From Microbacterium sp. SL75 (GTDB lineage Bacteria; Actinomycetota; Actinomycetes; Actinomycetales; Microbacteriaceae): a stretch of DNA of 64,000 bases. The notes beneath the pieces were generated by a model. That model saw only the letters and a list, made by a program, of their open reading frames with translations, had not been told where the DNA came from and searched no databases. A program made the translations under genes and the position numbers. Within the stretch, counting starts at the first letter, position 1. The number at the start of each line of letters is the position of its first letter. The stretch is from assembly GCF_026625865.1 (NCBI RefSeq), contig NZ_CP113067.1:124001-188000 (forward strand). The letters are read 5' to 3'. Below, piece by piece: positions 20,496-64,000 of the stretch.

Positions 20496-20549
20496 TTGCA
20501 CGAAGGGGCAGCACTGGCAGGGCTGAACGCCCCATCCCAGACTGGTCGC

Positions 20550-45960: not shown

Positions 45961-47149
45961 CGACCCGCTCCACGATCATCGCCGTCCCCTGCCCCACGCC
46001 GACGCACATCGTCGCCAGGCCGTACCGCGCGTCCTCGCGCTCGAGCCGCCCCAGCAGCGTCACAAGCAGACGCGACCCGCTCGACCCGAGGGGATGCCCC
46101 AGCGCGATCGCCCCGCCGTCGGCGTTGACGATCCGGGGGTCGAGTCCGAGTCGACGCATGCACGCCAGCGACTGCGAGGCGAATGCCTCATTGAGTTCGA
46201 CGGCCCCCAGGTCGGATGCCGACAGCCCGGCCTTCGCGAGCGCCTTCTCGGTCGCGGGCACCGGACCGAGCCCCATGATCTCTGGCGCCAGCGCGGCGGA
46301 GGCGTGCGCGACGATCCGGGCGCGAGGGCGCAGGCCATGGCGTTCGACCGCCTCGGCACTGGCCACCACGATCGCCGATGCCCCGTCGTTGAGCGAGCTG
46401 GAATTGCCCGCGGTCACGACCTCGCCGCCCGTCACGACCGGCCGGAGCCCCGCGAGCGCAGCCAGGGATGTGTCGCGGCGCGGGCCCTCGTCGGTATCGA
46501 CCACGCCGCGAGCGGTCTCGACGGCGACGATCTCGTCGCGGAAGTGCCCGGCATCCTGAGCCCGGACCGCCCGCTCGTGGCTGCGGAGCGCGAAGGCGTC
46601 GGCATCGGAGCGCGAGACGCCGTCGATCCGGGCGACCTCTTCGGCCGTCTCGGGCATGGTGAAGGTGGCTTTGTCGCGCGCGGCGAGGCGCGGATTGGTG
46701 AAGCGCCAGCCGATCGACGTGTCGTACGCCGCCCCGGGTTTCGCCCACGCCCTCTCGGGCTTCGCCTGCACCCAGGGAGCACGAGTCATGGATTCGACGC
46801 CGCCCGCGACGATCACGTCGGCATCGCCCGCGCGGATCGCCTGCGCGGCGAGCGCGATCGCGCTCATGCCCGAGGCGCAGAGGCGGTTGACGGTGAGGCC
46901 GGGGATGGAGTCGGGCAGCCCCGCGAGCAGAACGGCCATGCGGGCGACGTTGCGGTTGTCCTCACCGGCCTGATTCGCGGCGCCCAGGATGACCTCGTCG
47001 ATCGCCTCGGCGGGAACGCCCGCGCGGGCCGCCGCTTCGCCGACCACGAGCGCCGCCAGGTCGTCGGGCCGAACGGATGCCAGAGCCCCGCCGTACCGCC
47101 CGACCGGGGTGCGCGCACCGCCGATGAGAAACGCATGCGCCATCGTCAT
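45953..47149 (-). CDS. paaJ: 3-oxoadipyl-CoA thiolase PaaJ
   Basis: About 398 residues, releasing acetyl-CoA and succinyl-CoA at the end of phenylacetate degradation. The acylated cysteine lies in VNRLCASGMSAI near residue 88, with GHPLGSSGSR near 350 (histidine) and MCVGVGQG near 380 (second cysteine), all canonical. Two ATGs are possible, 47149 and 47143; the second has the better spacing to GGGGGAGAGG. It is first in its transcription unit, with an operator-like site 55 bases upstream. Confidence 0.91.
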   Translation of the reverse strand: MTMAHAFLIGGARTPVGRYGGALASVRPDDLAALVVGEAAARAGVPAEAIDEVILGAANQAGEDNRNVARMAVLLAGLPDSIPGLTVNRLCASGMSAIALAAQAIRAGDADVIVAGGVESMTRAPWVQAKPERAWAKPGAAYDTSIGWRFTNPRLAARDKATFTMPETAEEVARIDGVSRSDADAFALRSHERAVRAQDAGHFRDEIVAVETARGVVDTDEGPRRDTSLAALAGLRPVVTGGEVVTAGNSSSLNDGASAIVVASAEAVERHGLRPRARIVAHASAALAPEIMGLGPVPATEKALAKAGLSASDLGAVELNEAFASQSLACMRRLGLDPRIVNADGGAIALGHPLGSSGSRLLVTLLGRLEREDARYGLATMCVGVGQGTAMIVERVDG

Positions 47150-47203
47150 CCTCTCCCCCGCCGACTCTGGCGGGGCCCGTCCACCTCGCCCGCGAGGTTT
47201 TCC

Positions 47204-47220
47204 GACCGATCGTTCAGTAA
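47204..47220. promoter_or_regulatory. Operator-like site upstream of paaJ (PaaR/TetR-type)
   Basis: Exact second copy of GACCGATCGTTCAGTAA. It lies between the thiolase gene and the RND pump stop, in the only intergenic gap able to hold the promoter of the paaJ-F-H-Z-I-K unit. Confidence 0.75.
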
Positions 47221-47285
47221 TCTTGGCAGAAGGTGTCGCCGGAGGCAACGACGCACGTTCTCACACCGCCGCGATGGGCGAGCGC

Positions 47286-50200: not shown

Positions 50201-50945
50201 CGTTCTCACCCGGAATCACCAGTGCCGCCACCTGATCGGTGGAGGTCGGAACGCTACCGACCTCCACCGCGAGGGCGGTGTCGCCCTCACGGCTGGTTCC
50301 GGCCGCTGTTACCGAGAGCGACGCGGCCAGCACGTCCTGCACCTGCGAGGCCGTGACGTCCTTGGCGGTGGCGTCGGACGGACGCATCGTCACCACGAGA
50401 CGCTCCTCGTCGACGCCGGTCACCGTCACCTCGCGCACGCCGTCGACGGCCCTGAGGGCGGGCACCAGCACTCGCTGCACCTCATCGCCCAGCAACGCGG
50501 CGTCGCCGGCCGACGTCACGGCCACCTGCACGGCGGGAAGGTCGTCGGTCGACCCGGCGTACACCTCGGTGACCACGTCCCTCGGGAGGGCGGCCTGGGC
50601 CGCACCGACCGCCGACCGCAGGTCTTGCACCACCTTCTCGGCATCCAATCCGTACGGCCACTCGACGCTCACTCTCGAGACGCCGCCACCCGTGGTCGAG
50701 GTGACCCGGTCGACGCCCGGCACGGCCTTCACCGCGTCTTCGAGGGGAACCGTCACCTCTTTCTCGACCGAGGCCGACGAGGCTCCCGCGTAGGTCGCGA
50801 CGACCGACGCGGTGGGCGGCTGAAGCGAGGGGAGGAGTTCCTGCCGGAGCCCGGACGCGGCGATCAGCCCCGCGGCGACGATGAAGATCGAGACGAGGAC
50901 GACGAGGAGACGGTTGGCGAGGCTCAGCCTCGTCAGCGAAGACAC
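47286..50945 (-). CDS. RND (HAE1-like) efflux permease with a long coiled-coil insertion
   Basis: 1219 residues with the two-fold RND layout: TM1, a large external loop, TM2-6, then a repeat. The proton-relay aspartates are in TM4 (GRVVDDSIVVIENIARH, about residue 400). Unusually, the second external region contains about 165 hydrophilic residues (about 795-960) of heptad-like alanine/glutamine/glutamate sequence with a proline-rich break (SPPPASTTPPADPAPDP), probably coiled coil. The GTG at 50945 has GAGAGGA upstream; the long frame to 51275 overlaps the ketosynthase. It starts 14 bases after the ketosynthase gene, so it is likely co-transcribed with the biosynthetic cluster and may export its product. 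Confidence 0.86.
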   Translation of the reverse strand: MSSLTRLSLANRLLVVLVSIFIVAAGLIAASGLRQELLPSLQPPTASVVATYAGASSASVEKEVTVPLEDAVKAVPGVDRVTSTTGGGVSRVSVEWPYGLDAEKVVQDLRSAVGAAQAALPRDVVTEVYAGSTDDLPAVQVAVTSAGDAALLGDEVQRVLVPALRAVDGVREVTVTGVDEERLVVTMRPSDATAKDVTASQVQDVLAASLSVTAAGTSREGDTALAVEVGSVPTSTDQVAALVIPGENGPVSVGEVADVALESAPETSLARVDGVPAVTISVTKTPQAGVVEVSHEVARVLDDRRDALGSDVAFTTIFDQAPYIEQSIHDLSTEGALGLAFAIGVILLFLLSVRATIITAISIPLSLLIAMIGLAVGGFSLSILTLAALTIAVGRVVDDSIVVIENIARHRETGVSTDPGIVQAVREVAGAITASTLTTVAVFAPIAFVPGITGELFRPFAVTVTIALLASLLVSLTVVPVLASWVMRRPPRPLSPERFAALQRRRRQREDREAERRRQVVERENERRRRRGVPGIVAGQGTEPLDRLQAAYVPLLHLALRRPAGTLAVAVVVFVLTVVASGALRESFFDDDGQRTVSVTQAMPPGLSLPAASERAAQIEEILDADDDVATALTNVTEKSVTHTVILNDDADPQIAVARLRAELSSVQGVGQIAVHGTSSTGNSDLTVTVSGASEKSLAAGAEQVRAALAELRDLEGLRTDAVADEPILAVSVDQRRAAQYGFTQAEVGRAIHDSLRGASVGTVELDGHRHEVVLRGQANDATPAQIAGFELPVSALQQATAQKRASDALVVAQNAEQAAAEARQDESLSDQLAETRSARSSAQTQLADLVAQLNTLLTASPPPASTTPPADPAPDPAAAAQQAAAAQASVDALADSLGEAQRHEQIAQLQQSIAQVRASIAQLGTQIDGLIETRDETVAQRARAAALADQQKALADVRATPIEVGDIATVATSTGPSSITRTDGMRAITLTATPTGGDPGGVLLNVEAALGLVELPDGVTVSLGGGATEQDASLAHLALAMLAAIAIVFLIMAATFRSLAQSLILLVSIPFAATGAIALMLATDTPLGIPAMIGMLMLVGIVVTNAIVLVDLVNGRRAAGHDLLSAVIDGARLRLRPILMTAAATVLALVPMALGFTGGGVFVSRALAIVVIGGLISSTLLTLVLVPVLYLLVERRKERRAQQRRAREGSTAPAADGA

Positions 50946-50959
50946 GGTGGAAGTTCCTC

Positions 50960-52090
50960 TCAGCCGAGTTCCGGGGACTCGGTCGTGTGGTGCGGGGTGG
51001 CGGGACTGATCCGTCGGAGGAGCACGCTGGCGTTGTTGCCGCCGAATCCGAAGGCGTTGACCAGGGCGTGCTCGACCGGCCGGTCGCGGCGGAGCGCAGG
51101 TCCCTCGACGGGGAGGTGAACGCCCTCGACCTCGACGGGATCGCGCAGCCCCACGGTCGTCGGTATGCCCCCTTCCCGCACGGCGGCGACGGCCACGGCG
51201 ATGCCGGGGAAGGCAGAGGCGTGCAGCAGGTGGCCGAGAGCGCCCTTGTGCGACGAGACGGCGACCGCCGGCCACCCGCGCTCCGCGACGAGTCGCGACA
51301 CGGCCTCGAGCTCGGCCGCATCACCCTGCACCGTGCCGGTCGCATGCGCGTGCACGTAGTCGACTCCGGTCGCGCCGGCCTCGTCGAGCGCTCGTGCCAT
51401 GCAGGCGTAGACGACATCCGGGTCGGAGGCGACCGAGGAACGCCCGCCGATCTCGGCGACCGATGCTGCGAGCGCGGCGAGGGGCGTGGCGCCACGAGCG
51501 GCCGGGGCCGCCGCGCGCTCCAGAAGAACCGCACCGGCACCCTCGCCGACCAGGATGCCGTCGCGCTCGCGATCGAAGGGACGCGAGGGCGCGGTCCCGA
51601 TCGCCTTGACCACCCGCAGGCTCTCGCTCGCATAGGGATTGCACACCGACGCCCCCGCGACGAGGACGGCGTCGTGGATGCCGGCGCGGATCAGTCTCGC
51701 GGCGAGGTGGATCGCGAACAGCGCGCTCGCGCACGCGTGCGAGACGACGAGCGGCCGTTCCCAGCGCCGCGCGTCCGCCACGACGGTGATCGGCGCGTAG
51801 AGAGCGTTCTGCTCGCCGGGCGGCGCCTCGGCCTGGGCCGCGAGCAGCAGGAGGGGCGGCGGCGAGTTCTCCGGCCACCGCGCCTCGGCGAGGGCCTCAC
51901 CGATCGCCGACGCGAGCCATGAGGACGGGGCGGCACCGTCGAGTACGGCGCGATCGATGGGCCGCGTCGCCGCGTCATCGCTCGCGCCGACGGCGGGCGC
52001 GCGGCCGGCGAAGAGGCCGTCGAGCAGTGCCGGTACTCCGCGGCCATAGGCCGACACCAGCCCGACACCCGTGACGACGACATCGCTCAT
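50960..52090 (-). CDS. Beta-ketoacyl synthase (KAS/PKS ketosynthase type)
   Basis: 376 residues, stand-alone condensing enzyme. The complete catalytic triad is present: cysteine in HACASALFAIH near residue 120, histidine in HAHATGTVQGD near 250, and lysine-histidine in SSHKGALGHLL near 285; the C-terminal NAFGFGGNNAS is also canonical. It should extend an acyl chain on a carrier protein, but no carrier protein gene is in the window. ATGA overlap with the unknown gene upstream. The open frame to 52675 is a shadow. Confidence 0.88.
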   Translation of the reverse strand: MSDVVVTGVGLVSAYGRGVPALLDGLFAGRAPAVGASDDAATRPIDRAVLDGAAPSSWLASAIGEALAEARWPENSPPPLLLLAAQAEAPPGEQNALYAPITVVADARRWERPLVVSHACASALFAIHLAARLIRAGIHDAVLVAGASVCNPYASESLRVVKAIGTAPSRPFDRERDGILVGEGAGAVLLERAAAPAARGATPLAALAASVAEIGGRSSVASDPDVVYACMARALDEAGATGVDYVHAHATGTVQGDAAELEAVSRLVAERGWPAVAVSSHKGALGHLLHASAFPGIAVAVAAVREGGIPTTVGLRDPVEVEGVHLPVEGPALRRDRPVEHALVNAFGFGGNNASVLLRRISPATPHHTTESPELG

Positions 52091-52626
52091 GCTCCGCTCC
52101 CCACGAACGAGGGGCAGTCGACATGCGCAGCCAGGAGGTCGCAGTCCTCGGGGTGCGGCCCGTGCAGCTCGTATCGCACGACGAGCGCCGACCGGCATCC
52201 CTCGAGCAGGGATGCCACGAGCCCCGCGTCGAACGCGGACGCCAGCACGAGACAGGATCGCGGCCGCCCGCTTCCCCGGGCGGCAAGCGCCGCACGGACG
52301 GACTCGGAGGTCTCCATACCCGTCGAGTCGGTGGGACGCACGCGGGCCGTCTCGTCGTCGACCGTGACGACCAGACGCCGCGCGAAGGCCGTGGCGAACG
52401 CGCCGGCGAAGACGAGCAGGAGGTCGACGGCGTCGAAAGACTCGCCCACGACGGGGGCGAGAAGGTCGAAGGACCGCCGCACCGCGGTCTCGGGCACGCG
52501 CCGGGTGCCCTCGGGGAGCGTCTCGATCGCGAGCGGGGAACCCGAGAACGGGTACTCCGCCGCAGCGAACCGGTGGGCCAGGCCCGGCCGCGGGCTCACG
52601 CCTACCCAGGAACAGCCGGCAGTCAT
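52087..52626 (-). CDS. Unknown protein in the biosynthetic cluster
   Basis: 179 residues, not recognised. No signal peptide; there is a hydrophobic stretch at about 68-85 (AVDLLLVFAGAFATAFARR). The alternation of strands and helices, and its position just before a ketosynthase, suggest a divergent ketosynthase-like or dehydratase-like partner, but no motif supports it. It overlaps the MFS gene and the ketosynthase gene by ATGA at each end, so it is surely part of the operon. Confidence 0.6.
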   Translation of the reverse strand: MTAGCSWVGVSPRPGLAHRFAAAEYPFSGSPLAIETLPEGTRRVPETAVRRSFDLLAPVVGESFDAVDLLLVFAGAFATAFARRLVVTVDDETARVRPTDSTGMETSESVRAALAARGSGRPRSCLVLASAFDAGLVASLLEGCRSALVVRYELHGPHPEDCDLLAAHVDCPSFVGSGA

Positions 52627-53822
52627 GATGCCTCCCCCGCCTCGGCGACCATCGGTGCGGGCCGGTCAGCGGCATCCATCGCCCGCAGTGCCCACGGCGC
52701 CGCCAGACCTCCCAGCAGGGCGATCGCCGCGAGGACGACGCACGCGACCTGCCACGAACCGACCTCGTAGGCGATCCCCGCGAGAGCCGTGCCGACCGCG
52801 CCTCCCGCGAGGGCGGCGGCCTCGTAGGCGCCCATCGCGGTCCCGAACCGCGAGCGACCGGTCGACTCGGCGACGACGGCCTGCTCGACGGGCATCACGA
52901 TGGCCCAGGCCACGGCGCTCAGCACCCACAGGATCCCGATGACCGTCGGGGTGGGGGCGAACGCCAGGCCCACCGCGAAGGCGCAGCTCAGACCGGCGGC
53001 GATCAGCAGAGCCCTGCGGCGGCCGATACGGACGACGACGACGTGCAGCGGCTTCGGCAGGACCGCGAGCGCGATGGCCCCCGGGAGAAAGACCCACGCG
53101 GCCTCGATCACGCCGAGCTCGAAGTGCTTCTGCAGATGGATCAGGAGCACGATGCCGATGCCCGCCTCGGCAGCCGTCGAGCCCACGACCGCGCCGAGCA
53201 GGGGTGCGAGCCGCCGGACGAGCCCGCGGGCCGGGCCGGGAGAGCGTTCCTGACGAGACCGCTCGGCGGGCAGGAGCGCCACGAGCACCGCACCGGCCAG
53301 ACAGGCGAGGGCAGACAGCAGGAACAGGCCGGTGTACCCGACGGCGCCCAGCGCCGACAGCCCAGCGACGAAGGCGATCCACGCACCGGTCTCTTCCGCC
53401 GACACCAGGCTCGCGAACGCCGTCGCGTCCGACACGTACTGCTCGCTCACCATCGCGCGCAGCGCCACCCACAGCACGGAACCGCCCACCCCGCTCACGA
53501 CGGCCGCGGCGAACGCGACCGCGACGACGCCGTCCGTCGCGAGAGCGTACCCCGCGACCCCCAGACCGTAGATCACGGCACCGAAGGCCGCGACCACGCG
53601 CCGGTCGGCGCGATCCGCCGCCCAGCCCGCCAGCGGGCGGGCCGCGCACGACACCACCAGCTCGAGGGCCACGAGAAGACCGATGGCCGTGGCATCCAGA
53701 CCGAGGGCCAGGCCCGCCCAGAGGGGAACGACGAAGTCCAGCAGGTCAGCGGGGCCCCGCGTCAACGCCGCGGCACAGCGCAGGAACGACCACCTCGATT
53801 CCCGCGGATCACGAGCTGACAT
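52623..53822 (-). CDS. MFS transporter
   Basis: 399 residues with 12 hydrophobic segments and a basic loop in the middle (about 188-205). The typical MFS loop 2-3 motif is ARPLAGWAADRADRR near residue 61. It resembles drug exporters, and in this setting probably exports a cluster product or precursor. It overlaps the stop of the SDR-AMP-ligase gene by 14 bases and the next gene by four. Confidence 0.83.
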   Translation of the reverse strand: MSARDPRESRWSFLRCAAALTRGPADLLDFVVPLWAGLALGLDATAIGLLVALELVVSCAARPLAGWAADRADRRVVAAFGAVIYGLGVAGYALATDGVVAVAFAAAVVSGVGGSVLWVALRAMVSEQYVSDATAFASLVSAEETGAWIAFVAGLSALGAVGYTGLFLLSALACLAGAVLVALLPAERSRQERSPGPARGLVRRLAPLLGAVVGSTAAEAGIGIVLLIHLQKHFELGVIEAAWVFLPGAIALAVLPKPLHVVVVRIGRRRALLIAAGLSCAFAVGLAFAPTPTVIGILWVLSAVAWAIVMPVEQAVVAESTGRSRFGTAMGAYEAAALAGGAVGTALAGIAYEVGSWQVACVVLAAIALLGGLAAPWALRAMDAADRPAPMVAEAGEAS

Positions 53823-56001
53823 CGGCGACGGTTTCCTTTCGCGCGGCGGCCCGTCCGGCTTCCGCTTCGGCGGCGAGACGTGCGCGGTCGATCTTGCCGG
53901 TGCCGAGCCGGGGCACCTCGGCGACGAGGACCACCCGGTTGGGCCACTCGTGTTCGGGGAGCGCGGCTCTCACCCGCTCTGCCACCCACTCGGCCCGCGT
54001 GTGCGTGCCGGCGTCCTCGATGAACGCGGTGAGGTGAGCGCCCCGACGCTCGTCGGCCAGAGCAATCAGCGTCAACGGAACGCCCGCTCGATCGGCGCGA
54101 TCTTCGAGGTGGGCGGGATAGATGGTGTGGCCCCCGCGATGCACGGCCCCCGCCCGGCCGATCACGCGCAGGGCGCCGTGGGCATCGACGGAGCCGATGT
54201 CTCCGGTGCGGTACCAGCCGTCCTCGACCTCAGCGGGCCGATCGTCGCCGATCGTCGCGGTGAACAGAGCTTTCGAACGGATCCACAGCTCGCCCGTCTC
54301 ACCGGGCTCCACCAGCGCCCCATGGGGTCGGCGGACCGACAGTTCGACGCCCGGCAGAACCCGCCCCAACCCCTCGGGCCGTTCGAGCGTCGCGAGAGAG
54401 ACGTTGCCCAGCTCGGTCGAGCCGTAGCCGTCGAGCAGCGACCGCCCGGTGATCCGCAGGAACCGCTCGGCGAGCGACGGCCTCAGCGGAGACCCACCGA
54501 CGCACCACATGCGCACGCGCGGTGCCATCTCGACGCAGCCGCGTTCCTCCAGCAGATCGAGGATGTCGGCGATGACGGGCGGAGTGGCATCCACCACCGT
54601 CACGCCGCGGGGAAGCGCGGCCCGCAACGTCTGGACCGGACGGCGATGGTTGCCCATCACCAGGGTGCACCCCACGAGCCACCACGCGAGCACGAGCGAG
54701 AGACCGTACTGGTGGCTCAGTGGCAGCAACGGCAGCAGAACGTCGTCGGCGCGGTACCCCATGGCGTCGACGGTCGCCCGGACGTTCTCGAGCACGGAGG
54801 AACCGGAGCGCACCACACCGCGCGGTCGCCCCGACGAGCCGGAGGTCCACAGGACGATGCCGTCATCGCGGTCCTCCCACGCGGGGAAGCCCGCCGTGGT
54901 ACGGCGATCGCACCCGCAGTCGAGGTGCGCGCCGACCGCGGCGACGACCGGGCCGGCACCACCGAGGTCGACGCGATCCCGCACGGGCGGCAGGCCCCGG
55001 GCCGTGATCGTGGCCGCACATCCGGTGCGCGCGGCGATCTGCTCCACGTCAACGGCGGGAAGGCCGGGGTCGAGCAGCACGATCGAGACCCCGGCATCCA
55101 TCAGGGCGAGAAGGACGAGTGCTGTCTCGGGTGTCGACTCGTCGCATACGAGCACGCGGGAGAACGTCCGCAGACCCCGATCTTCGAGATGCTCGCGGAT
55201 ACGACCGACCATGTCCGAGGCGCAGAACGAGCGGCCCTCCACTCGCCGGACGCGCGGGCATTTTGTCGTCGCCGCACGCTCGAGGAACCACGCCGCGCCG
55301 CCGTGGAACACGATCTCGCCGTTGCGGTGGGGCCGGGCGATGGCTTCGATCACCGTCTGCGCGACGTCGGAGGTCGTCGCGAGCCTGCCGATCTGCCTCC
55401 GTCGTTCCGCGGTGGAGCCCGGCCGCAGCCGTTCCATCAGCAACGTCGTCGCGGAATCGACCACGACATCGGCCGAGACGACCACCAGTCGTGCCCCGAC
55501 GGCGGCGATGCGCTCGGTGAGCGCGAGCAGCGCATCCTGTCCCGCGCGCTTGGATGCGGCGACCGTCTCGTACTCCGGCTCCGGCGCGACCTCGCGGCTG
55601 AAGTGCGCCTGATGGCTGGTGAGGTACACGATCACACCGCCGTCGCTCATCACGGGCAGGGCGTCGCCGACGAGTTGGGCCAGAGCATCCCGGTTCAGCG
55701 CGAAGGCGTCGTGCGCGGTGCTCCCCTCCTCCATTCCCCCGGATGCCGCGAGCACGAGGACGTCGATGCGCTCGAGGCCCGAGATGAGGTGTCGCCGCGC
55801 TCGCGGATCGCGCAGGTCTCCGACGCGCACGTCGATCTCGTGCGCGCCCTCGGCGACGGCCCTGTCGGAGAGACGACGGGCACGCGCGAGCTTCTGCCGG
55901 CAGCCGACGACGACCCGCTCCCCCGCGACGGCGAGTCGGCGGGCGACTTCTGCGCCGATCCCGCGCGAGCCGCCCGCGACCACGACGGTGCGCCCCGTCA
56001 C
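53809..56001 (-). CDS. Fusion of a short-chain dehydrogenase and an acyl-AMP ligase
   Basis: 730 residues. Residues 1-235 are an SDR domain: GGSRGIGAEVARRL near 10 and NRDAL near 103. In the active-site stretch ETVAASKRAG the tyrosine expected four residues before Lys151 is valine. From about 300 an adenylating domain follows: LWTSGSSGRPRGVVRSG (P-loop, near 370), LLDGYGSTELGNVS, GWYRTGDIGSVD and LGTGKIDRARL with the catalytic lysine. The ligase half looks active and should load a fatty or aryl acid onto CoA or a carrier protein. The GTG start overlaps the AT gene (GTGA). Confidence 0.82.
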   Translation of the reverse strand: MTGRTVVVAGGSRGIGAEVARRLAVAGERVVVGCRQKLARARRLSDRAVAEGAHEIDVRVGDLRDPRARRHLISGLERIDVLVLAASGGMEEGSTAHDAFALNRDALAQLVGDALPVMSDGGVIVYLTSHQAHFSREVAPEPEYETVAASKRAGQDALLALTERIAAVGARLVVVSADVVVDSATTLLMERLRPGSTAERRRQIGRLATTSDVAQTVIEAIARPHRNGEIVFHGGAAWFLERAATTKCPRVRRVEGRSFCASDMVGRIREHLEDRGLRTFSRVLVCDESTPETALVLLALMDAGVSIVLLDPGLPAVDVEQIAARTGCAATITARGLPPVRDRVDLGGAGPVVAAVGAHLDCGCDRRTTAGFPAWEDRDDGIVLWTSGSSGRPRGVVRSGSSVLENVRATVDAMGYRADDVLLPLLPLSHQYGLSLVLAWWLVGCTLVMGNHRRPVQTLRAALPRGVTVVDATPPVIADILDLLEERGCVEMAPRVRMWCVGGSPLRPSLAERFLRITGRSLLDGYGSTELGNVSLATLERPEGLGRVLPGVELSVRRPHGALVEPGETGELWIRSKALFTATIGDDRPAEVEDGWYRTGDIGSVDAHGALRVIGRAGAVHRGGHTIYPAHLEDRADRAGVPLTLIALADERRGAHLTAFIEDAGTHTRAEWVAERVRAALPEHEWPNRVVLVAEVPRLGTGKIDRARLAAEAEAGRAAARKETVADVSS

Positions 56002-56906
56002 GCGAGGGCCTCCGACACGGCCGCGGGCGAGATCGGAACGGTCTCGAAGCGGTCGCCGCCGTGCCTGCGGAAGGCCGACGACGGGCCGGGCACGATGAGA
56101 CCCGTCACGCCGACGGCCTCCAGGCCGTCGTACAGCGTCGTGCCCACCGTCGGGTGCGTCCACCCGTCGAGCAGGTCGGTGCGCACCTCCTCGGCCGTGT
56201 TCAGCACCGCGCCGGTGACGTCGGAGACGATCGGCACGGCGGGGTCGTCGAAGACCACGCCCGCGTAGGCCTCGAGCTCCACCCGCTCGCGCACGGGCAT
56301 CATCCGGGGGCAGTGCTCGGCCCGATCGATCGTGTAGTAGACGATTCCGCGGCGCGCGCGCACCGCGTTGTCGAGGCGTGCGATCGCCGCGGCCGTTCCC
56401 GAGACCGCGTACACGCCCCGATCGCCCCGCACCGAGACCTCCGCCCACCCGTCGGGCTCTCCCGCCGCGCGCACGAGCGCCTCGATGTCGGCATCCGCCA
56501 CCCGTGAGAAGAAGATGCACGCGAGCGGCACGTCGAGACCGGCGAAGAACGCCCTCTCCGCCGCGGTGCTCCGCGACAACAAGCCGACCATCTCACCGAG
56601 TGGCAGACAGCCCGCGGCAACGGCTCCGGCGAACGCGCCGAAGCTCTGACCGCAGATCGCTTGCGGGCGCAGGCCTCTCTCGTCGCGAGCCCACTCGGCG
56701 AGAGCGAGGTTGATCGCGAGGAAGGCCGTCTGGTACGGCTCCCAGTCGTAGATGTCGGCGTTCGCGTAGGCCTCCTCGAGGTCGTACCCCAACGCCTCGC
56801 TGCACTCGTCGAACAGGCGCCGGGCGACCGAGAACCGGTCGAGGAAGCGACGCACGTGACGGTGACGCGCCGGCGTGAGACCGGGGAAGAGAAGAGCGTG
56901 CATCAT
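55998..56906 (-). CDS. Acyltransferase, malonyl-CoA:ACP transacylase-like
   Basis: 302 residues with an FabD/PKS-AT fold. The nucleophile elbow reads CGQSFGAFAGAVAAG near residue 83 (GQSxG in place of GHSxG), and the second catalytic histidine is in DRAEHCPRMMPV near 200. LLFPGLTPAR at the N-terminus corresponds to the FPGQG start of AT domains. It would load malonyl or a similar extender onto a carrier protein for the ketosynthase. It overlaps its neighbours by four bases on both sides. Confidence 0.8.
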   Translation of the reverse strand: MMHALLFPGLTPARHRHVRRFLDRFSVARRLFDECSEALGYDLEEAYANADIYDWEPYQTAFLAINLALAEWARDERGLRPQAICGQSFGAFAGAVAAGCLPLGEMVGLLSRSTAAERAFFAGLDVPLACIFFSRVADADIEALVRAAGEPDGWAEVSVRGDRGVYAVSGTAAAIARLDNAVRARRGIVYYTIDRAEHCPRMMPVRERVELEAYAGVVFDDPAVPIVSDVTGAVLNTAEEVRTDLLDGWTHPTVGTTLYDGLEAVGVTGLIVPGPSSAFRRHGGDRFETVPISPAAVSEALA

Positions 56907-58579
56907 CGGCCCTCCCCCGCTGTCGCGGGCGGTCGCGGCAGCGGAAAGTCACCGGCCAGTTCCTCGAAGCCCGGCGCGACATCGTCGAGCGAGACGGCGA
57001 CGTCGAGCACGACCGCACGGCCCGTCGCGGCCCGCCCCCAGGCCCGACGCACGGCCTCGGCGAGCTCCGCGGCATCGTCGCACCCCTCGTAATCGAGCGC
57101 GTACGCGGCGCACAGGCCGCGCACGACCGTGCGGCTCCCCACGAACGAGAACGGTGCGCCGGCGCGGCGCCGGTTCGCTTCGAGCCACCCGAAACCCCCG
57201 TTGGTGAGGACCACGACGAGAACCGCGCTGTCGATCTCGGCGAGGGCCGCGAGGTCGGGCCCGATCGAGCTGAAGGCGCCGTCACCGCCGATGACGACCA
57301 CCGGACGCGGGTCGCCCAGGGCCACGCCGCGGACCGCGGCCATGCCGAACCCGAGCGGGGTCTGCTCGCTCGGAACGAGACACGCGGCGTCGCGACGCAC
57401 GATCCAGTGCGGGAAGACGTACGACCAGATGTCCTGCAGGCCGTTCTCATGGATGCTGACCCGTGCCGTCGGCACGGCGGCGTCCACTTCGCGCAGCACG
57501 TCCTTCACTCGCGGAATCGCTCCGTGTGCCGTCACCGGCGCCGGGTCATCCCCCGCCCGGAGCGCCACGTGCGCGGCGGCGACGGCGGCCGACCAGCTCG
57601 AATCAGCAGGGACGGTCGGCAGGGCGGTACGCCAGGCGCGCACCACGTCGGCGACATCGGCCACGATCCGTTCCGTCGCCCAGGCCGGGGTGAACTCGCT
57701 CTCGTCGTCGAGCACCTGAACGATCCGGCATCCGGGGGCCAACCCGGTATCCCAGCCGAAAGTCGCTGTCTCTTCCAACCGGGAGCCGAGCGCGACGATC
57801 ACGTCGACGCTCCGCAGGATCGCGGCGGCCCCGTCCGGTGCGTAGAGACCGCTGACCCCGAGGAATGCCGGGTGCGTCTCATCGATCACTCCCCGACCGG
57901 ATGCCGTGACGGTGACGGCCGCGCCGAGCCGGTCGACCAGTGCGACGATGTCGTCGCCGAGCCCGGTGTCGGAGCAGCCGCCCCCGACCACGACGAGGGG
58001 CCGTCTCGCGTCGCGGACGACGTCGGGCAGGGGCACGTCGGGGCTCGTCCGCCTGCGCTGCGGTGGGCGGACGCGCGCCGCAGATGACGGTGGAAGACCC
58101 TCCGGGACCTCGAGGATCACCGGTCCGCGGCCCCGACCCCGGCTCAGCCGGAACGCTTCGGCCAGCCCGCCGGCGACCGTGTCCTCGTCGACGCGGATCG
58201 TGCCGACGGTCAGCGCTCCCAGCGCCTCGATCGGATCCAGCTCCTGGAAGGCGCCCGTTCCGAGCCGGTCCAGGGGCACGCCCGAGCTGATGAGCACGAG
58301 CGGGTGACGCTGAGAGCGCGCTTCGAGCAGTCCGGTGGCCGCGTGGGTGAGGGCCGGCCCCTTGCCCACGAAACAGACCGACGGCCGGCCCGAGATCCGC
58401 CCGTACCCGATGGCCTGATAGGTGGCGTGTCGCTGGTCGCGAGCAAGCACGACCCGGATGCCGCTGCGCTCGAGCGCTCCGAGGATCGTCATGTCGTCGC
58501 CGGGCAGCCCGAAGACCGTGTCGACGCCGTGCGCCGTGAGCCCCTCGGCGACCCGATCCCACACGGTGTCGCGCGTCAT
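56903..58579 (-). CDS. Thiamine-diphosphate-dependent enzyme, acetolactate synthase-like
   Basis: 558 residues with the three-domain layout of ThDP decarboxylases and carboligases. The N-terminal pyrimidine-binding domain has FGLPGDDMTI near residue 23; the central domain is at about 190-340. The C-terminal domain has the ThDP/Mg motif GGDGAFSSIG (about 435), ending in LTNGGFG. The glutamate that normally activates the cofactor (RHEQ-type motif) is replaced: the sequence reads ARDQRHATYQAIGYGR with Gln49. It may join acyl units or decarboxylate a keto acid in the pathway. ATGA overlap with the ALDH-like gene. Confidence 0.8.
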   Translation of the reverse strand: MTRDTVWDRVAEGLTAHGVDTVFGLPGDDMTILGALERSGIRVVLARDQRHATYQAIGYGRISGRPSVCFVGKGPALTHAATGLLEARSQRHPLVLISSGVPLDRLGTGAFQELDPIEALGALTVGTIRVDEDTVAGGLAEAFRLSRGRGRGPVILEVPEGLPPSSAARVRPPQRRRTSPDVPLPDVVRDARRPLVVVGGGCSDTGLGDDIVALVDRLGAAVTVTASGRGVIDETHPAFLGVSGLYAPDGAAAILRSVDVIVALGSRLEETATFGWDTGLAPGCRIVQVLDDESEFTPAWATERIVADVADVVRAWRTALPTVPADSSWSAAVAAAHVALRAGDDPAPVTAHGAIPRVKDVLREVDAAVPTARVSIHENGLQDIWSYVFPHWIVRRDAACLVPSEQTPLGFGMAAVRGVALGDPRPVVVIGGDGAFSSIGPDLAALAEIDSAVLVVVLTNGGFGWLEANRRRAGAPFSFVGSRTVVRGLCAAYALDYEGCDDAAELAEAVRRAWGRAATGRAVVLDVAVSLDDVAPGFEELAGDFPLPRPPATAGEGR

Positions 58580-59805
58580 GCGCTCACGTCCTCTGCCCGG
58601 AGCCGCGGAAGGTAGGCGGAGAGGCCTTTCGACAACAGGATCGGTTCGGGGCGGACGACGCCGTCCACGGCGATGTAGTTCGCCATCGCGCCGCGGCCGC
58701 CCAAGGGGGCGTTCCCGTCGTCGACGGCGAGCAGCGTCTCGTCGACGGTCAGCGTGTGACGGCGCGAGAGCGCCGATACCAGCCGATTCGTGGGCCCGAA
58801 CACCGTCGCGCCCATCGCACGCTCGTGGTATTTGCCGGAATCGAGCGTCTCCACGACCGCGGATTCGTCGTCGTACAGGCCGACGTTGAAGATCGGGGAG
58901 AAGAACTCGAGGATCTCCATCCGTCGCGCGTCGTCCCAGACGAGCACCGTGGGCTCGATGTGACGCGAGCCGAAGTGGATGCGGCCCCCGCGATGGATAC
59001 GGCCCTGGTGGCGGTCGAGGTAGTCCGCGATGTCGCGCACGATCCCCGGATAGCAGATGTCGCCGTAGTCGCTCCGCGGGTCGTCGTAGGCACCGTAGCG
59101 CACCTCGTCCAGGCGTCGATCCAGCGCCGCGAGCAGACCATCGGCCGCGTCGCGCTCCACCCAGATCGCGTCGGGTCCGAGGCAGTCCTGGCCGGAGTTC
59201 AACAGGCGGATGTCGACGATGCCGCGCGCCGCGTGTTCCAGGTCGGCGGTCGCCGTGACGACGATGGGGTTGATCCCCGAGCCGAGGAAGAACATCATCT
59301 GATCGCGACGCAGGCGCGCCCGGATGCGCTCGGCGTTCTGGTATGCGCCGGCGAAGACGACGACGGGCGCGGTGGGCACCGTGCGTTCGACGAACTGGCG
59401 CTGCGTCTCGTCGCGGATCTCGATCGCGAAACCGTGCTCGGGCGCGAGCAGCGCGTGCAGACGCGCCACGGTGTCTCGGACGTGGGATGCCGGGCGGACG
59501 AGGACGCGCGAGGCGTAGAGCGAGGGCACGAGCGCGTAGAGGACGTACGAGTAGAGCACCACGTTCGACGGCAGGAAGACCGCGATGGCCGATACGCGGG
59601 GCGGGCGATGCTCGGCGACCTCGGCACCGGCTCCTCGCAGCGCTGCGACGGCGGCATCCACCTCGTAGTCCGCCGCCTTCCTCGTACAGATGACCGTGAG
59701 GATGGCCAGGACCTCCGCCCGGCGCGCCTCGATGACGTCGGCGAGCGCGGAGAGCTGTTCGGGCATGGCGAAGCGCGCCGCGGGCGAGGCGTGGGTCTTC
59801 TGCAT
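58576..59805 (-). CDS. Aldehyde dehydrogenase / acyl-CoA reductase-like enzyme
   Basis: 409 residues with an ALDH-superfamily fold but shorter than typical ALDH (about 480). Visible are VAIFLPSN-like strands (IAVFLPSNVVLYSYV near 73), FLGSGINPIVVTATAD near 175 and the catalytic cysteine in NSGQDCLGPDAIWVE near 210. C-terminal landmarks are LEFFSPIFNVGLYDD near 302 and GRGAMANYIAVDG near 374. It would interconvert an acyl group and an aldehyde. AAGGA precedes ATG 59805, 24 bases after the ABC exporter stop. Confidence 0.75.
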   Translation of the reverse strand: MQKTHASPAARFAMPEQLSALADVIEARRAEVLAILTVICTRKAADYEVDAAVAALRGAGAEVAEHRPPRVSAIAVFLPSNVVLYSYVLYALVPSLYASRVLVRPASHVRDTVARLHALLAPEHGFAIEIRDETQRQFVERTVPTAPVVVFAGAYQNAERIRARLRRDQMMFFLGSGINPIVVTATADLEHAARGIVDIRLLNSGQDCLGPDAIWVERDAADGLLAALDRRLDEVRYGAYDDPRSDYGDICYPGIVRDIADYLDRHQGRIHRGGRIHFGSRHIEPTVLVWDDARRMEILEFFSPIFNVGLYDDESAVVETLDSGKYHERAMGATVFGPTNRLVSALSRRHTLTVDETLLAVDDGNAPLGGRGAMANYIAVDGVVRPEPILLSKGLSAYLPRLRAEDVSA

Positions 59806-59829
59806 GGTGTCCTTCGAGAAGAGAGGCGG

Positions 59830-61554
59830 CTATCTCGCGAGCGAGAGGCGAGCCAGACGGGAGTAGGAGCGGGAGGTACGAACGAGGTGGGAGTGGGTGC
59901 CGGTGGAGATCGTGCCGTCGCGGCGCAGGTAGACCACCTGGTCGGCCCCCGCCGCCGTGTGCAGGCGGTGCGTGACGACGAGCACCGTCCGCGTGCCCGC
60001 GAGTCCGCCGATCACCGCGTTGATGCGCGCCTCGGACTCGGGATCGAGCCGCGAGGTCGGCTCGTCGATGAGGACGATCGAGCCCGGCGACAGCAGCGTT
60101 CGAGCGAGTGCGAGGCGTTGCGCCTCACCCCCTGACAGCGCGCGCCCGGTCTCGCCGAGAGGGACATGGATGCCACGGGGATCTTCGTCGACGAGGTCGT
60201 CGAGGCCCATGGCGTTCAGCGCCCGCATGAGCTGCTCGTCGTCGGCGTGCGGCGCTCCCAGACGCAGGTTGTCCGCGAGCGAACCGTCGATGAGGGGTGC
60301 GTTCTGTTCCATGTAGGCCACGCGGCGGCTCACCTCTCGACGGTCCATCTGCGCCAGGTCGGCTCCGCCGAGCAGGATGCGTCCACTGTCGGGATCGTGC
60401 AGGCGGGCGAGGAGGTCGAGGATCGTCGACTTCCCGCTTCCCGATGGCCCGACCAGGGCGCAGATGCTGCCGGCGCGAACGGTGAGGCTGACGTCGCTGA
60501 CACCGCCCGCGCCGTGCGGGTGGCCGAATCCGACCCCCTCGAGGCGGATGGGTCCGGGGGCGGACACCTCGCTCTCCCCCGCGGGCCGCGCGATGCGCTC
60601 GTCGCTCTGGGGGTCCTCGACCGGAACCCGGAGGGCGGCGCTGATCCTGTCCCACGAGGCGCGCGCTCTCTGCAGCACGGGCACGGCGCGCAAGGCGTTC
60701 TCGACGGGCGAGAGCACCAGGACGACGTACATCAGGAAGGCCAGCAGCTCGGAGAACGCCATCGTCCCCTGACCGACCTGGATCGCGCCCACCGCCAGAA
60801 CGGCGAGGAAAGCGCACTGCGTCGCCATCTGGCCGATCGGCGAGACGATGGCCGTGCGGTTGCCGAGGGCGACGGCAGCGTCTCTGGCGCGGACGGCGGG
60901 TTCGATCAGACGCGCCACGTACCTTTCGGTCGCCCCGGCCGTGCGGATCGTCCGCATGGCGCGCAGCGAGCTGGCCAGCTCTGATCCCATCTGCGCGGTC
61001 GCGTCCTGACTGCGGCGACTCAGCGTCCGCACCGGCCCCGAGGCGAGGGTGACCACCGCACCCGAGACGATGATCGCCACGACCGTCACGAGGAAGAGCA
61101 GAGGGCTCAGGATGAACATGAGCGTGCATGCCCCGAGAGTGAGGGCGGCCGCGGTGACGATCTCGAACACCCCGCCGACCACCATGGTGTGCACCTGGGC
61201 CGTGTCGGTCGTCAGCAGGCTGACCAGTTCGCCGTGCCGCTCCTCGGAGTAGCGCCGCACCGGCCAGCGGAGGAGCCGGTCGGCGAGCCCGCGCCGCACG
61301 TCGAACACCGCCCGCGCGCCCGTGCGTTCGAGCAGGACGGTGTGAAGGCCCGCGGCGACCGCCTCGACGGCGATGACCGCCACCAGCACGACCAGGCTGA
61401 GGACGATCGCATGGTTCGTGCGCACCGCCTCGATCACCGCCTGGGCGGCGAGCGGCTGCGCCAGAGCGCATCCGACGGCCACGAACGCCGTTGCGACGAT
61501 GACGACGAGACGGCCCCGGTGCGGTCGGATGAACGTGTGGAAGAAGGATGCCAA
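59830..61554 (-). CDS. ABC exporter, fused membrane and ATPase domains
   Basis: 574 residues. Six transmembrane helices lie in the first 300, then an ATPase domain: Walker A ALVGPSGSGKSTILDLL near 370, Q-loop region YMEQNAPL, signature ALSGGEAQRLALARTLL, Walker B VLIDEPTSRLD and H-loop VVTHRLH. No peptidase domain is present, so it does not cleave a leader. The start is a TTG at 61554 with GGGAGG six bases upstream, two bases after the LanKC stop. It probably exports the modified peptide made by LanKC. Confidence 0.87.
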   Translation of the reverse strand: MASFFHTFIRPHRGRLVVIVATAFVAVGCALAQPLAAQAVIEAVRTNHAIVLSLVVLVAVIAVEAVAAGLHTVLLERTGARAVFDVRRGLADRLLRWPVRRYSEERHGELVSLLTTDTAQVHTMVVGGVFEIVTAAALTLGACTLMFILSPLLFLVTVVAIIVSGAVVTLASGPVRTLSRRSQDATAQMGSELASSLRAMRTIRTAGATERYVARLIEPAVRARDAAVALGNRTAIVSPIGQMATQCAFLAVLAVGAIQVGQGTMAFSELLAFLMYVVLVLSPVENALRAVPVLQRARASWDRISAALRVPVEDPQSDERIARPAGESEVSAPGPIRLEGVGFGHPHGAGGVSDVSLTVRAGSICALVGPSGSGKSTILDLLARLHDPDSGRILLGGADLAQMDRREVSRRVAYMEQNAPLIDGSLADNLRLGAPHADDEQLMRALNAMGLDDLVDEDPRGIHVPLGETGRALSGGEAQRLALARTLLSPGSIVLIDEPTSRLDPESEARINAVIGGLAGTRTVLVVTHRLHTAAGADQVVYLRRDGTISTGTHSHLVRTSRSYSRLARLSLAR

Positions 61555-61556
61555 GC

Positions 61557-64000
61557 TCAGCCTCCCGCTCGCGGAAGATCGAGACCGGGGAACGCGGGGC
61601 GCCCGGTCGCCACCGATGAGAGCACGGCCGCGACCCCGGCGGCGCCGGTCGCGTAGTCCATCGAGACGCGAGACAGTCCGCGACCGAGCACTCCGACTCC
61701 GTCGCGGTAGGCGACGCCGTGCCAGTCGAGTGCGCGCGCGTGCATGTCGATAGGCGCTCGGGTGTCGGCCACGCCCGCGCGCTGCAGCTGATCGAGCGCG
61801 ATCATCAGGCCCGCCCGACCGTCGAAGACCCCGGGCTCGATGACGATCGTGGGGCTGAGCGCGCGGACCAGACCCTCGACCTGCGAAGCGGTGAGCGCGT
61901 CACGGCCGGCGCGTGCCAGGCGGGCGCCGGCTACCGCGATACCGGCAGAACCGTGTGCGAGATAGGGGTAGAGCACGCCACGTTCCTCGACGAGCAGTGC
62001 GCCGTCGGGCCCGGCAGAACACACGAGTAGGTCTCGTGCAAGGCACCGCTGCGCCTGATCGAGGTAGCGGTGGTCGCCCGTCGCCTCGGCGAGTGCAGTG
62101 AGGAACACGGCGACACCCGACCAACCGTCGACCAAGCCCGCCGCGGCGCCGGTAACCGTTCCTGCGGCGGCGACGCGCCGGTCGAGGATCCCGTCTGCGA
62201 GTCGGGCGGCGGTGTCGATCCCCTCCGCGCCCGCATCGATCAACGCGAGACCGACCCCCGCTCGGCCGCTGTAGAGCGTCGCGTCGTCGGAGGTCGAGAT
62301 CCGCTCCGCTGCTTCGGCCAGGAGAGCCCGCGCCTCCTCGACGCGGCCGCGAGCGCCGAGGGCGAGCGCCATTCCGGCCTGTCCGCTCAGCAGGCCCGGA
62401 TCGGCGATCCCGCGCGCACCGCTCGCGAGCCAGTCGACCCACGCCTCGGGCACGTCTTCGCCGAGCTGATGCAGGCTCCACAGGACGCCCGCGGCCCCGG
62501 CAGCGAATTGCCGGCCGTTCTCGAGGTACAGCAGCACGTCGCCGGGGAAGAGCCGATCCGCTCTGTCCGGGGTCGCAGACGCCCGGACCGCCTGCACGAG
62601 CGACGCGGGGCCGAGAGGCTCGAGCGGAACGGACGGCGCCGAAAGACCGTAGCTGCGCTCGACGAGGTCGCGCCAGTGCGAAGGCAGATCGAAGGTGTCC
62701 TGCGCCCATGCGATGTGCTGACCGGCCCGCGCAGGATCGAAAGCGAGCACGATCGCAATGGGGAGGAACAGCCAGAGCGCGAGGGCGCCCAGGGCGTAAT
62801 GGTCGTCGTCGACGCCCGTCGGCTCGTCGCGGCCCCGCCTCGGCCGAGCGAACCCCGGACAGCCCAGTCCGACCGGCACGCTCGACCCGGCGGCGGCCGC
62901 CAGCTCGAAGTCGACGATGCTCAGCCGTCCGTGCGCGTCGACCAGCACGTTCCCGGGGTGCAGGTCGCCGTGGGCCCAGCTGCTCGCATGAAGAGCACCG
63001 ACGCAGGCCGTCAGCGAGCGCAGGATTCCGAGCGCCCGCTCCCGGTAGACCGCCACGGCCGCACCGTCCGCCGGAAATCCCGCGCGCACGCCGGGGTGAT
63101 GAACGGCCACCCAGTGCTGCAACGTATCGGCGTCGGAGTACGCCGACACCAGGAAGACGTGCCCACCCAGCTGGAACCGGTCGATCAGCGCGGGCACGCC
63201 GTGGAGCCCGTCCAGCGCGATGTGCGCCTGATACTCCCGTTCCAGTCGCTCCACGGCATCCGTTCCGAATCCGTCGAGGCCCGCGTTCGGTCGCGCCTCT
63301 TTCAGCACGACCGGCAGACCATCCGAGCGCCGGCGGCCCCGGTACACCCCGCCCGCGTTCGAGAAGTGCAGGGCCTCATCGAAGGTGTACTCGCACTCCG
63401 CGAGCTCCGCCCTGCCCTCCTCCGCGAGGCGGAGACGACCGGGCACGTCGACCCACTCCGGGATGACCACGTACGGTCGCCGCTGGTCGGGCACGAGCGA
63501 GCCGTCGGGCGCCTCGATGGCATGCACGCGGTGCCCCTCCTCGTCGTCGCACCAGCGTTCGACGAAGCCGCCGTATCGCACGTGCAGAGGCCCCTCCTGC
63601 CAGCGCAGGTCGCTCAGAATGGTCGGTCCCGCCAGGCCGCCGATCCGCTCCTGGAGGGCGTCCAGAGCAGCGAAGAGCTCGCCCTCGTCGCGGGGGTAGA
63701 TGGTGACGAACTTGCCGCTCGCGCTGCGCGAGGCGTACTTCGCCCCGCAGACCAGCAGCACCAGCTCCGAGCGCAGGTACTTGAAAGCGACACCGCGTGG
63801 GACGCAGTGCTCGACCACGGCATCGAGAACGGCTCGCGCCGTGCGGGGAATCGCCGCGACGTGGATCTTCCAGCCCTGCGCCGGCCCCTGCCAGCAGACG
63901 GGGAACGCGGTGTTCCACTCCCGCGCCGTGCCGTGGGACCATCCGTCGGGGAGGACGACCTCGTAGGGGCGCATCCTCTCATCGCCGCGGGCATCCATCC
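61557..64000 (-). CDS. Class III lanthionine synthetase (LanKC), 5' end at window edge
   Basis: At least 813 residues; the frame stays open to the right edge, and class III enzymes usually have some 30-40 residues before the PDGW motif, so the true start may lie outside. The N-terminal lyase region has ASGKFVTIYPRDE near 92 and LHVRYGGFVERWC. The kinase domain (about 220-480) has PVVLKEARP, catalytic loop HGDLHPGNVLVD and VDFELA. The cyclase region (about 490-813) has the repeated GxAG elements LYSGRAGVGLAL, DGWSGVAVFL, AHGSAGIAVA and TGAAGVAAVL. It lacks the zinc-ligand cysteines and histidine of class IV, so class III. It would dehydrate and cyclise a ribosomal precursor peptide not present here. 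Confidence 0.88.
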   Translation of the reverse strand, partial: MDARGDERMRPYEVVLPDGWSHGTAREWNTAFPVCWQGPAQGWKIHVAAIPRTARAVLDAVVEHCVPRGVAFKYLRSELVLLVCGAKYASRSASGKFVTIYPRDEGELFAALDALQERIGGLAGPTILSDLRWQEGPLHVRYGGFVERWCDDEEGHRVHAIEAPDGSLVPDQRRPYVVIPEWVDVPGRLRLAEEGRAELAECEYTFDEALHFSNAGGVYRGRRRSDGLPVVLKEARPNAGLDGFGTDAVERLEREYQAHIALDGLHGVPALIDRFQLGGHVFLVSAYSDADTLQHWVAVHHPGVRAGFPADGAAVAVYRERALGILRSLTACVGALHASSWAHGDLHPGNVLVDAHGRLSIVDFELAAAAGSSVPVGLGCPGFARPRRGRDEPTGVDDDHYALGALALWLFLPIAIVLAFDPARAGQHIAWAQDTFDLPSHWRDLVERSYGLSAPSVPLEPLGPASLVQAVRASATPDRADRLFPGDVLLYLENGRQFAAGAAGVLWSLHQLGEDVPEAWVDWLASGARGIADPGLLSGQAGMALALGARGRVEEARALLAEAAERISTSDDATLYSGRAGVGLALIDAGAEGIDTAARLADGILDRRVAAAGTVTGAAAGLVDGWSGVAVFLTALAEATGDHRYLDQAQRCLARDLLVCSAGPDGALLVEERGVLYPYLAHGSAGIAVAGARLARAGRDALTASQVEGLVRALSPTIVIEPGVFDGRAGLMIALDQLQRAGVADTRAPIDMHARALDWHGVAYRDGVGVLGRGLSRVSMDYATGAAGVAAVLSSVATGRPAFPGLDLPRAGG

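Follow-up and report, generated by a model that had tools for sequence, protein, structure and literature searches.

Does the gene cluster at the right-hand end of the analysed stretch of the Microbacterium sp. SL75 genome make a known kind of lipopeptide, and if so, of which kind are its peptide, its ring and its acyl chain? The stretch, hereafter the window, comprises 64,000 nucleotides (contig NZ_CP113067.1, positions 124,001 to 188,000; G000:C1:124001-188000) of a genome assembled as a single contig of 3.44 Mb. The cluster occupies window positions 47257..64000 on the minus strand and extends to the equivalent of ~69.4 kb, forming one inserted island of ~22 kb. Its gene content suggests an acquired island whose probable product is a class III lanthipeptide N-acylated with a polar fatty chain, most likely an omega-guanidino one; the island looks like a rare, distinct version of the known polar fatty-acylated class III lanthipeptide systems. 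Coordinates prefixed L004 refer to G000:C1:186001-206000 (window coordinate = L004 + 62000), genes lie on the minus strand unless stated otherwise, and the publications referred to by PMC number are cited from extracts.

Extent, gene order and rarity of the island

An empty site is present in the congener G006 (L139), where the match to window positions 47098-47256 ends at 15314 and the match from 69507 begins at 15939, a spacing of ~0.6 kb where the source genome has ~22 kb. Because this congener is without the whole stretch, the cluster is counted as a single island, and the breaks in the alignment place its borders just left of the gene for a resistance-nodulation-division (RND) pump and just right of an M78 peptidase gene. 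Thiolase and enoyl-CoA hydratase genes flank it on the left and coaBC on the right. The thiolase gene is also missing from G006, where own positions 45949 and 47098 are separated by 14 bases, and the left flank is therefore itself variable.

The ten window genes of the cluster, from the class III lanthionine synthetase LanKC to the RND pump, are all present and open, in the order and with the identities given in a preliminary description made from the sequence. Its statement that these genes mostly overlap by four bases proved slightly strong, as this applies to 5/9 junctions; one further junction is a 14-base overlap and three are gaps (LanKC/ABC exporter, 2 bases; ABC exporter/aldehyde dehydrogenase, 24 bases; ketosynthase/RND pump, ~14 bases, given an inferred GTG start for the latter). 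The preliminary description also proposed that the sequence be read past 64000, and two precursors and an acyl carrier protein (ACP) indeed occur within ~4 kb, together with a GNAT protein, a ketosynthase (KS), a small membrane-type protein and a diiron oxidase. The LanD-like decarboxylase that it proposed to look for there was not found in the genome, and the absence of any precursor or carrier protein within ~10 kb, which it had named as evidence against itself, did not occur. In the 5' to 3' direction of the minus strand the order is diiron oxidase, ACP, LanA1, LanA2, small protein, FabF-type KS, GNAT and LanKC. The cluster is real, complete-looking, rare, compact and nearly a single operon.

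Its rarity is evident within the genus, where the aldehyde dehydrogenase (ALDH) is matched at E 3e-56 or better in 5/366 genomes (SL75 itself, one same-species metagenome-assembled genome (MAG), G077, G332 and G333). A further 92 genomes match it at E 1e-20, partially and far more weakly, and these matches are read as ordinary ALDHs. At E 1e-70, the fusion of a short-chain dehydrogenase/reductase (SDR) with an AMP-forming ligase (SDR-AL) is found in 1/398 genomes drawn from the family, that of SL75. The same-species MAG (L023/L117) keeps the whole cluster, including LanA1 and LanA2.

A fusaricidin-type lipid module with unusual active sites

The lipid genes of the island can be aligned with those of a pathway of known outcome. 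Paenibacillus ottowii (L036) carries a gene series encoding an enoyl reductase, an AMP ligase, an ALDH, a thiamine diphosphate (ThDP) enzyme, a KS, a FabA-like protein and a non-ribosomal peptide synthetase (NRPS; condensation, adenylation and carrier domains). The series follows the fus order, and in-frame starts exist for exactly the lengths printed in Table 1 of PMC6829208 (fusG, 771; fusF, 1461; fusE, 1224; fusD, 1701; fusC, 1242; fusB, 408 bp). According to the same extract, fusB-G make the lipid moiety of fusaricidin, any single deletion abolishes the product, and the side chain is 15-guanidino-3-hydroxypentadecanoic acid. Homologues of FusC, FusD, FusE and FusF all occur in the one island, with 40 % (KS), 35 % (ThDP enzyme), 42 % (ALDH) and 35 % (AMP ligase) identity to the L036 proteins. 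They include a FusE-like ALDH family protein (58576..59805; 409 aa; Pfam Aldedh), a FusD-like ThDP enzyme (56903..58579; 558 aa; Pfam TPP_enzyme N/M/C), which belongs to the acetolactate synthase superfamily, and the SDR-AL fusion (53809..56001; 730 aa), which looks like FusG and FusF joined into a single chain. The YX6K motif, a mark of enoyl reductases, occurs in the SDR domain of this fusion, in the L036 enoyl reductase and in 6/6 fusion homologues checked. By sequence, the chain-making enzymes thus look to be common to the island and an unrelated antifungal lipopeptide. The odd chains of fusaricidin (C15) and of nocaviogua, whose chain has 13 carbons according to the extract of PMC10435860, would be consistent with a starter of three or five carbons (C3 or C5). 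No paper joining ThDP or thiamine, ALDH and guanidino was found in the literature searched, and the fus link is not claimed to be absent from print.

Two of the shared enzymes depart from their families at catalytic positions. The HMMER alignment sets the ARDQRHA segment of the ThDP enzyme opposite ARHEQGA of acetolactate synthase, and Gln49 occupies the position where the catalytic Glu, which activates the cofactor in ThDP enzymes, is expected. Gln stands here in 62/62 aligned rows (own and 61 loci), and the motif alone gives Gln in L118 and Glu (SDER) in the microvionin-type loci L119 and L120. The relatives of this enzyme in the PDB include BbmA and CsmA, and the literature search gave no paper that plainly deals with them. 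For the ALDH, an alignment of 32 rows (A1; own and 31 of 56 protein-search hits) shows Cys208 and Asn81 to be invariant (32/32), and Glu is found in 0/32 rows in the stretch that the alignment places opposite ELGG of class 3 ALDH. In the ALDH mechanism this general-base Glu is tied to hydrolysis, and its loss makes a thioester or an aldehyde a likelier outcome than a hydrolysed product. The ALDH profile gave 64 matches in the PDB at 1e-15 and none at E 1e-40. Given both the Gln for Glu in the ThDP enzymes and the loss of Glu in the ALDHs, the starter chemistry of the pair is therefore probably unusual. Single chains carrying both ALDH and AMP ligase domains (P0012 and similar) occur in Saccharothrix, Amycolatopsis and others, an arrangement which suggests direct hand-over between the two activities.

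Chain extension has its own candidates in the island. The malonyl transacylase-like acyltransferase (AT; 55998..56906; 302 aa) falls below the family cut-offs (NCBIfam fabD, 63.2 bits, cut-off 260.9; Pfam Acyl_transf_1, 26.2 bits, below cut-off). A FabF-type KS (L004:2741-4030; KS domain) and a 97 aa ACP with a DSL motif (L004:4702-4995; ACP domain) are encoded beyond the window. A second, short KS (50960..52090; 376 aa; Pfam ketoacyl-synt) retains the Cys120 and His249 motifs and likely partners the adjoining 179-aa protein (52087..52626). The latter has a predicted half-thiolase fold and may act, as ApeC does, as a chain length factor, according to a predicted model of moderate confidence. 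Ten relatives of the 179-aa protein were found in the protein search, including proteins of Candidatus Lumbricidophila eiseniae and Rathayibacter agropyri, and the family has no convincing match in Pfam even at E 1.

It is this short KS with its ApeC-like neighbour, resembling the aryl polyene synthases, that lends weight to an explanation in which the chain is plain or aryl-polyene-like and carries no guanidine, the ThDP/ALDH pair making another starter; no guanidine-specific gene was seen in the island, as this explanation would have it. Since the best-characterised relatives of the ThDP enzyme, ALDH and ligase belong to a guanidino-fatty-acid pathway and a microvionin-type locus, however, a chain of this kind is considered rather unlikely, and an omega-guanidino chain is preferred.

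Precursor peptides and the question of avionin

LanKC (61557..63998; 813 aa) comprises the Pfam domains RamC_N, Pkinase and LANC_like and scores 780.8 bits against NCBIfam NF038151 (cut-off 575). Its candidate substrates are LanA1 (MQAILNLQKLEAATDVSAMAASTVSNHCVR; L004:4538-4630) and LanA2 (MSILDLQKLETARETADGFAAVSSISTHCF; L004:4401-4493), both preceded by AAAGGAGG. LanA1 scores 40.0 bits against the class III precursor model NF038154 (cut-off 22) and LanA2 29.2 bits against NF038160 (cut-off 27). LanA1 has no Pfam match, and neither peptide matches the microvionin family NF038376 at E 0.1. That the two might be chance open reading frames (ORFs) was rejected, as both pass the class III models and are kept in the same-species MAG. 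Both have an SxxSxxC core (LanA1, ASTVSNHC-VR; LanA2, SSISTHC-F), in which the Cys is not the last residue, LanA1 terminating in ...HCVR and LanA2 in ...HCF. The spacing S-x-x-S-x-x-C is that of the nocaviogua ring, given as Avi2-x-x-Avi5-x-x-Avi8 in the extract of PMC10435860. No promoter or terminator was recognised when the precursor region was scanned for them. An inverted repeat between LanA2 and the next gene (L004:4316-4349; 15-base arms, 93 % complementary, 4-base loop) might perhaps limit read-through past the precursors. In a 40-row LanKC tree, the SL75 and L023 proteins sit together on a long branch, separate from L121-L129, with a weak joining fork (82/77, drawn open) and many long branches; descent of this LanKC from the common class III clusters of congeners was rejected on this tree, suggestively only, given the weak fork.

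A decarboxylated Cys would require a LanD-like flavoprotein. At E 0.001, PF02441 (Flavoprotein) is matched once in the genome, by CoaBC (C1:194401), which lies outside the island, ~1 kb past its right edge. A motif script applied to 33 ALDH loci found precursors in nine, several loci being cut at LanKC so that precursors there could be missed. The Cys is terminal in precursors of L024, L043, L045, L057, L066, L073, L077 and L079, as well as of L119, L120 and Streptomyces nigrescens HEK616 (L141), and it is not terminal in LanA1 and LanA2, L130 (...GSSVSYNCG) and several congener precursors that lack lipid genes (L123, L124, L126, L131). Despite their Cys-terminal precursors, S. noursei and HEK616 have PF02441 matches only outside the locus; in the genomes of L077 and L079 a single match is present, in a CoaBC-sized frame. 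As terminal Cys thus occurs elsewhere without a local LanD, the group does not invariably include LanD, and the lack of LanD together with the residues after the Cys makes labionin or lanthionine the expected ring. The congener locus L130 (G113:C1:1807500-1827499), with large KS-containing ORFs read as type I polyketide synthases, a GNAT and a LanKC, is perhaps goadvionin-like, also with its Cys not last.

A true avionin lipolanthine would result if the C-terminal residues were cut off and CoaBC, or some other flavoprotein of the host, then decarboxylated the Cys left at the end, and the nearness of CoaBC, the LanKC, the polar fatty acid genes and the SxxSxxC spacing, all as in lipolanthines for the latter three, could be read in this way. 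This is judged improbable, as CoaBC has a housekeeping role and is matched in 24/28 genomes (own included) at E 1e-100, terminal-Cys precursors exist in L077 and L079 where the sole PF02441 match is of CoaBC size, and microvionin-type loci have a flavoprotein of their own. Going by its genes, the island does not strictly qualify as an avionin lipolanthine, and a labionin or lanthionine peptide is preferred.

Conservation of the gene set in other genomes

Alignment A1 was used to collect 64 ALDH loci, in which the island proteins served as queries at E 1e-5. The ThDP enzyme accompanies the ALDH in 61/64 (the exceptions being L073, L085 and L086), a KS is present in 55, an AMP ligase/SDR match in 49 and LanKC in 26, and the loci span Actinomycetota, Bacillota and at least one Bradyrhizobium. 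The 26 LanKC loci combine ALDH, ThDP enzyme and KS in 25 cases and include a GNAT in 21 and a diiron oxidase in 12; all loci with the diiron oxidase (12/12) also have LanKC. ThDP/ALDH pairs whose covered flank gives no match to LanKC are encoded in L063 (Bradyrhizobium uaiense), L062 (Salinispora vitiensis), L074 and L071, where polar lipids of new kinds are possible products. L118 (G077:C9:38000-57999) contains an ALDH, KS, ACP, ThDP enzyme of the Gln type and diiron oxidase and has no LanKC match within 20 kb; the LanKC match of that genome (G077) is on another contig.

That the island makes two products whose genes are merely clustered, namely a class III lanthipeptide that stays free and a polar lipid unrelated to it, as might be supposed from six congener loci (L123-L126, L128, L129) in which LanKC adjoins precursors of 38-43 aa, mostly with two Cys motifs, and none of the island's lipid proteins is matched, is very improbable, since the ACP gene stops 71 bases before LanA1, the KS, GNAT and LanKC genes are consecutive, and LanKC recurs in 26/64 ALDH loci and 12/12 diiron loci.

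The peptide-lipid hybrid proposed in the preliminary description agrees with the gene content, since a single island holds the precursors and LanKC as well as an ACP, two KSs, an AT and a GNAT. The lipolanthine-type assignment stands as far as LanKC and the fatty acid/polyketide genes are concerned and fails on the lack of a LanD in the genome, the Cys that is not last and the missing NF038376 match. The suggestion that the ThDP enzyme and the reductase are new, and hence that the acyl group may be, is not supported, as the ALDH, ThDP enzyme, AMP ligase and KS occur in microvionin-type loci of two congeners too; nor are the ThDP enzyme and ALDH new to the compound class, a candidate rejected in view of those loci, of the recurrence of the pair with a KS in LanKC loci and of their fusaricidin homologues, each of which is needed for the product.

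Proposed biosynthesis

The trio of FusD-, FusE- and FusF-like enzymes (ThDP enzyme, ALDH and AMP ligase) would make and activate a polar starter. Its extension would fall to the AT, the ACP and both ketosynthases, the FabF-type one and the short one that is paired with the ApeC-like protein. The SDR domain would act as reductase, with the remaining reductive steps supplied by host fatty acid synthesis, and the diiron oxidase may oxidise the chain or the head group. LanKC would phosphorylate, dehydrate and cyclise the SxxSxxC of LanA1 and LanA2 to labionin or lanthionine, not avionin. After removal of the leader by a host protease, the GNAT (L004:2079-2744; GNAT domain 41.9 bits, cut-off 25.4) would transfer the acyl chain from the ACP to the new N-terminus, and the product would be exported by the ABC, MFS and RND transporters. 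The guanidine, the ring type, the acyl transfer and every chemical step are what we infer from the genes.

Several observations weigh against this pathway. The guanidine is not visible in the sequence; the scanned island proteins include no amidinotransferase or methyltransferase, and there was no dehydratase (FusB counterpart) among the 19 scanned against Pfam, and no leader protease among them beyond the M78 protein. The identity of the SDR domain to the L036 enoyl reductase is only 24 % over 87 residues (E 0.007). The SDR-AL query matches 14/26 LanKC loci, and the ligase is therefore not constant in the flanks covered; a GNAT match is absent at E 1e-5 in 5/26, and it is by domain and position only that the GNAT would be tied to N-acylation. 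The Glu of the microvionin-type ThDP enzymes means that their reaction may differ somewhat. A C16 guanidino fusaricidin, reported in the extract of PMC8621861, speaks against strict parity and weakens the argument from odd chain length.

A more far-reaching possibility, put forward tentatively and with well under even confidence, is that the FusD/FusE-like pair performs chemistry as yet undescribed in either superfamily. A ThDP carboligase without the catalytic Glu and an ALDH without general base, the latter then forming thioesters or reducing acyl groups instead of hydrolysing, would construct the omega-guanidino starter by making a C-C bond. The module would then have moved between NRPS antifungals and lanthipeptides and, with a type II synthase of the ApeO/ApeC kind, yield a guanidino-polyene labionin peptide that continues past its ring. 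No description of such a peptide was found in the literature, and the extracts consulted gave no account of how the lipolanthine guanidino chain is started. Lipolanthines are active on Gram-positive bacteria according to the extract of PMC10435860. The fusC-fusF homologues, as a portable set with two conserved active-site losses, would provide a genetic marker for guanidino-type lipids, and the starter chemistry becomes directly testable with few purified enzymes.

Further genes of the island and window

The diiron oxidase (L004:4992-6014; 340 aa) is the first of the minus-strand series. Six Glu/His positions, kept in 13/13 rows, would be its metal ligands, and its solved relatives include ribonucleotide reductase small subunits, R2-like oxidases, a VlmB homologue and an aldehyde deformylating oxygenase. 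Between LanA2 and the KS lies the gene for a small protein (L004:4023-4277) that has two hydrophobic stretches. Three transporters are present, namely an RND efflux pump (47286..50945; 1219 aa from the inferred GTG start; Pfam ACR_tran 614.3 bits), which is the leftmost island gene, a major facilitator superfamily (MFS) transporter (52623..53822; 399 aa; Pfam MFS_1) and an ATP-binding cassette (ABC) exporter with membrane and ATPase domains in one chain (59830..61554; 574 aa; Pfam ABC_membrane, ABC_tran). Divergent from the cluster, on the plus strand, are an XRE regulator (L004:6437-6841) and an M78 (IrrE-like) peptidase (L004:6852-7289), the latter read as partner of the regulator and not as leader protease.

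Elsewhere, window positions 8001-22000 have 59-62 % GC, compared to 66-73 % in the rest of the window, and this stretch ends near a tRNA-Ala (22149-22224), of whose 3' end no repeat was found. A 2464-aa PA14/PKD protein (12824-20218, minus strand) is encoded inside this stretch.

Comparison with known systems

The ApeO/ApeC KS-chain length factor of aryl polyenes shares with the island a short KS adjoining a half-thiolase partner (the latter by a predicted model of moderate confidence), in a pathway context unlike that of the island. The fusaricidin clusters of Paenibacillus share the FusE, FusD, FusF and FusC homologues (35-42 % identity) but differ in that their peptide is NRPS-made and that of the island ribosomal, in their separate enoyl reductase and ligase, and in the presence of the FabA-like FusB.

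The microvionin-type locus of G332 and G333 encodes LanKC, a flavoprotein, an ALDH, an AMP ligase, a KS, an ACP, an SDR and ThDP enzyme matches, with a small class III precursor (MMSLEQLEALDASSEAAEMAASLGSQSC). In G332, Pfam backs the flavoprotein (30.6 bits, cut-off 22.7) and the AMP ligase, and the precursor (L120) scores 61.3 bits against NF038376 (cut-off 33). All of these components except the LanD-like flavoprotein recur in the island. The precursor of the microvionin-type loci is Cys-terminal, and their LanKC is distant (112-115 bits to that of the island). The island in turn has a GNAT (no match in the microvionin-type loci at E 1e-4), two precursors with residues after the Cys, a diiron oxidase, the SDR-AL fusion and a second KS with an ApeC-like partner, and no LanD. 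The extract of PMC11521342 attributes microvionin to Microbacterium arborescens and names a class III 'michivionin' cluster in Clavibacter.

Closer LanKC relatives are found in Streptomyces loci with LanKC and diiron oxidase (L024, noursei; L066, albus; L028; others), which provide the best LanKC match outside the species (545 bits). They share LanKC, ALDH, ThDP enzyme, AT, KS and diiron oxidase, and some also the 179-aa protein/short KS pair; they differ in gene order and strands and in precursors that, where found, terminate in Cys, and no SDR-AL match was found in the flanks covered of L024, L028 and L066, unlike in the island. The loci of S. lydicus (L032) and S. nigrescens HEK616 (L034) were considered as candidates for the solabiomycin cluster. 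In S. nigrescens HEK616 (L141:5256-5707), three near-identical 28-aa precursors with a MDLQGLEVPGERDAQALGST core, Cys-terminal, adjoin LanKC; two end in STVSTGC and one in STLSGGC, with no obvious fit to the solabiomycin sequence in the extract of PMC13192320. With the solabiomycins, the polar-functionalized fatty-acylated RiPPs (ribosomally synthesised and post-translationally modified peptides) of Streptomyces that this extract describes, the island would share a ribosomal peptide, a labionin-derived ring and a polar fatty acyl chain, and, likened by description, it fits their pattern of a class III precursor with an SxxSxxC core and no LanD.

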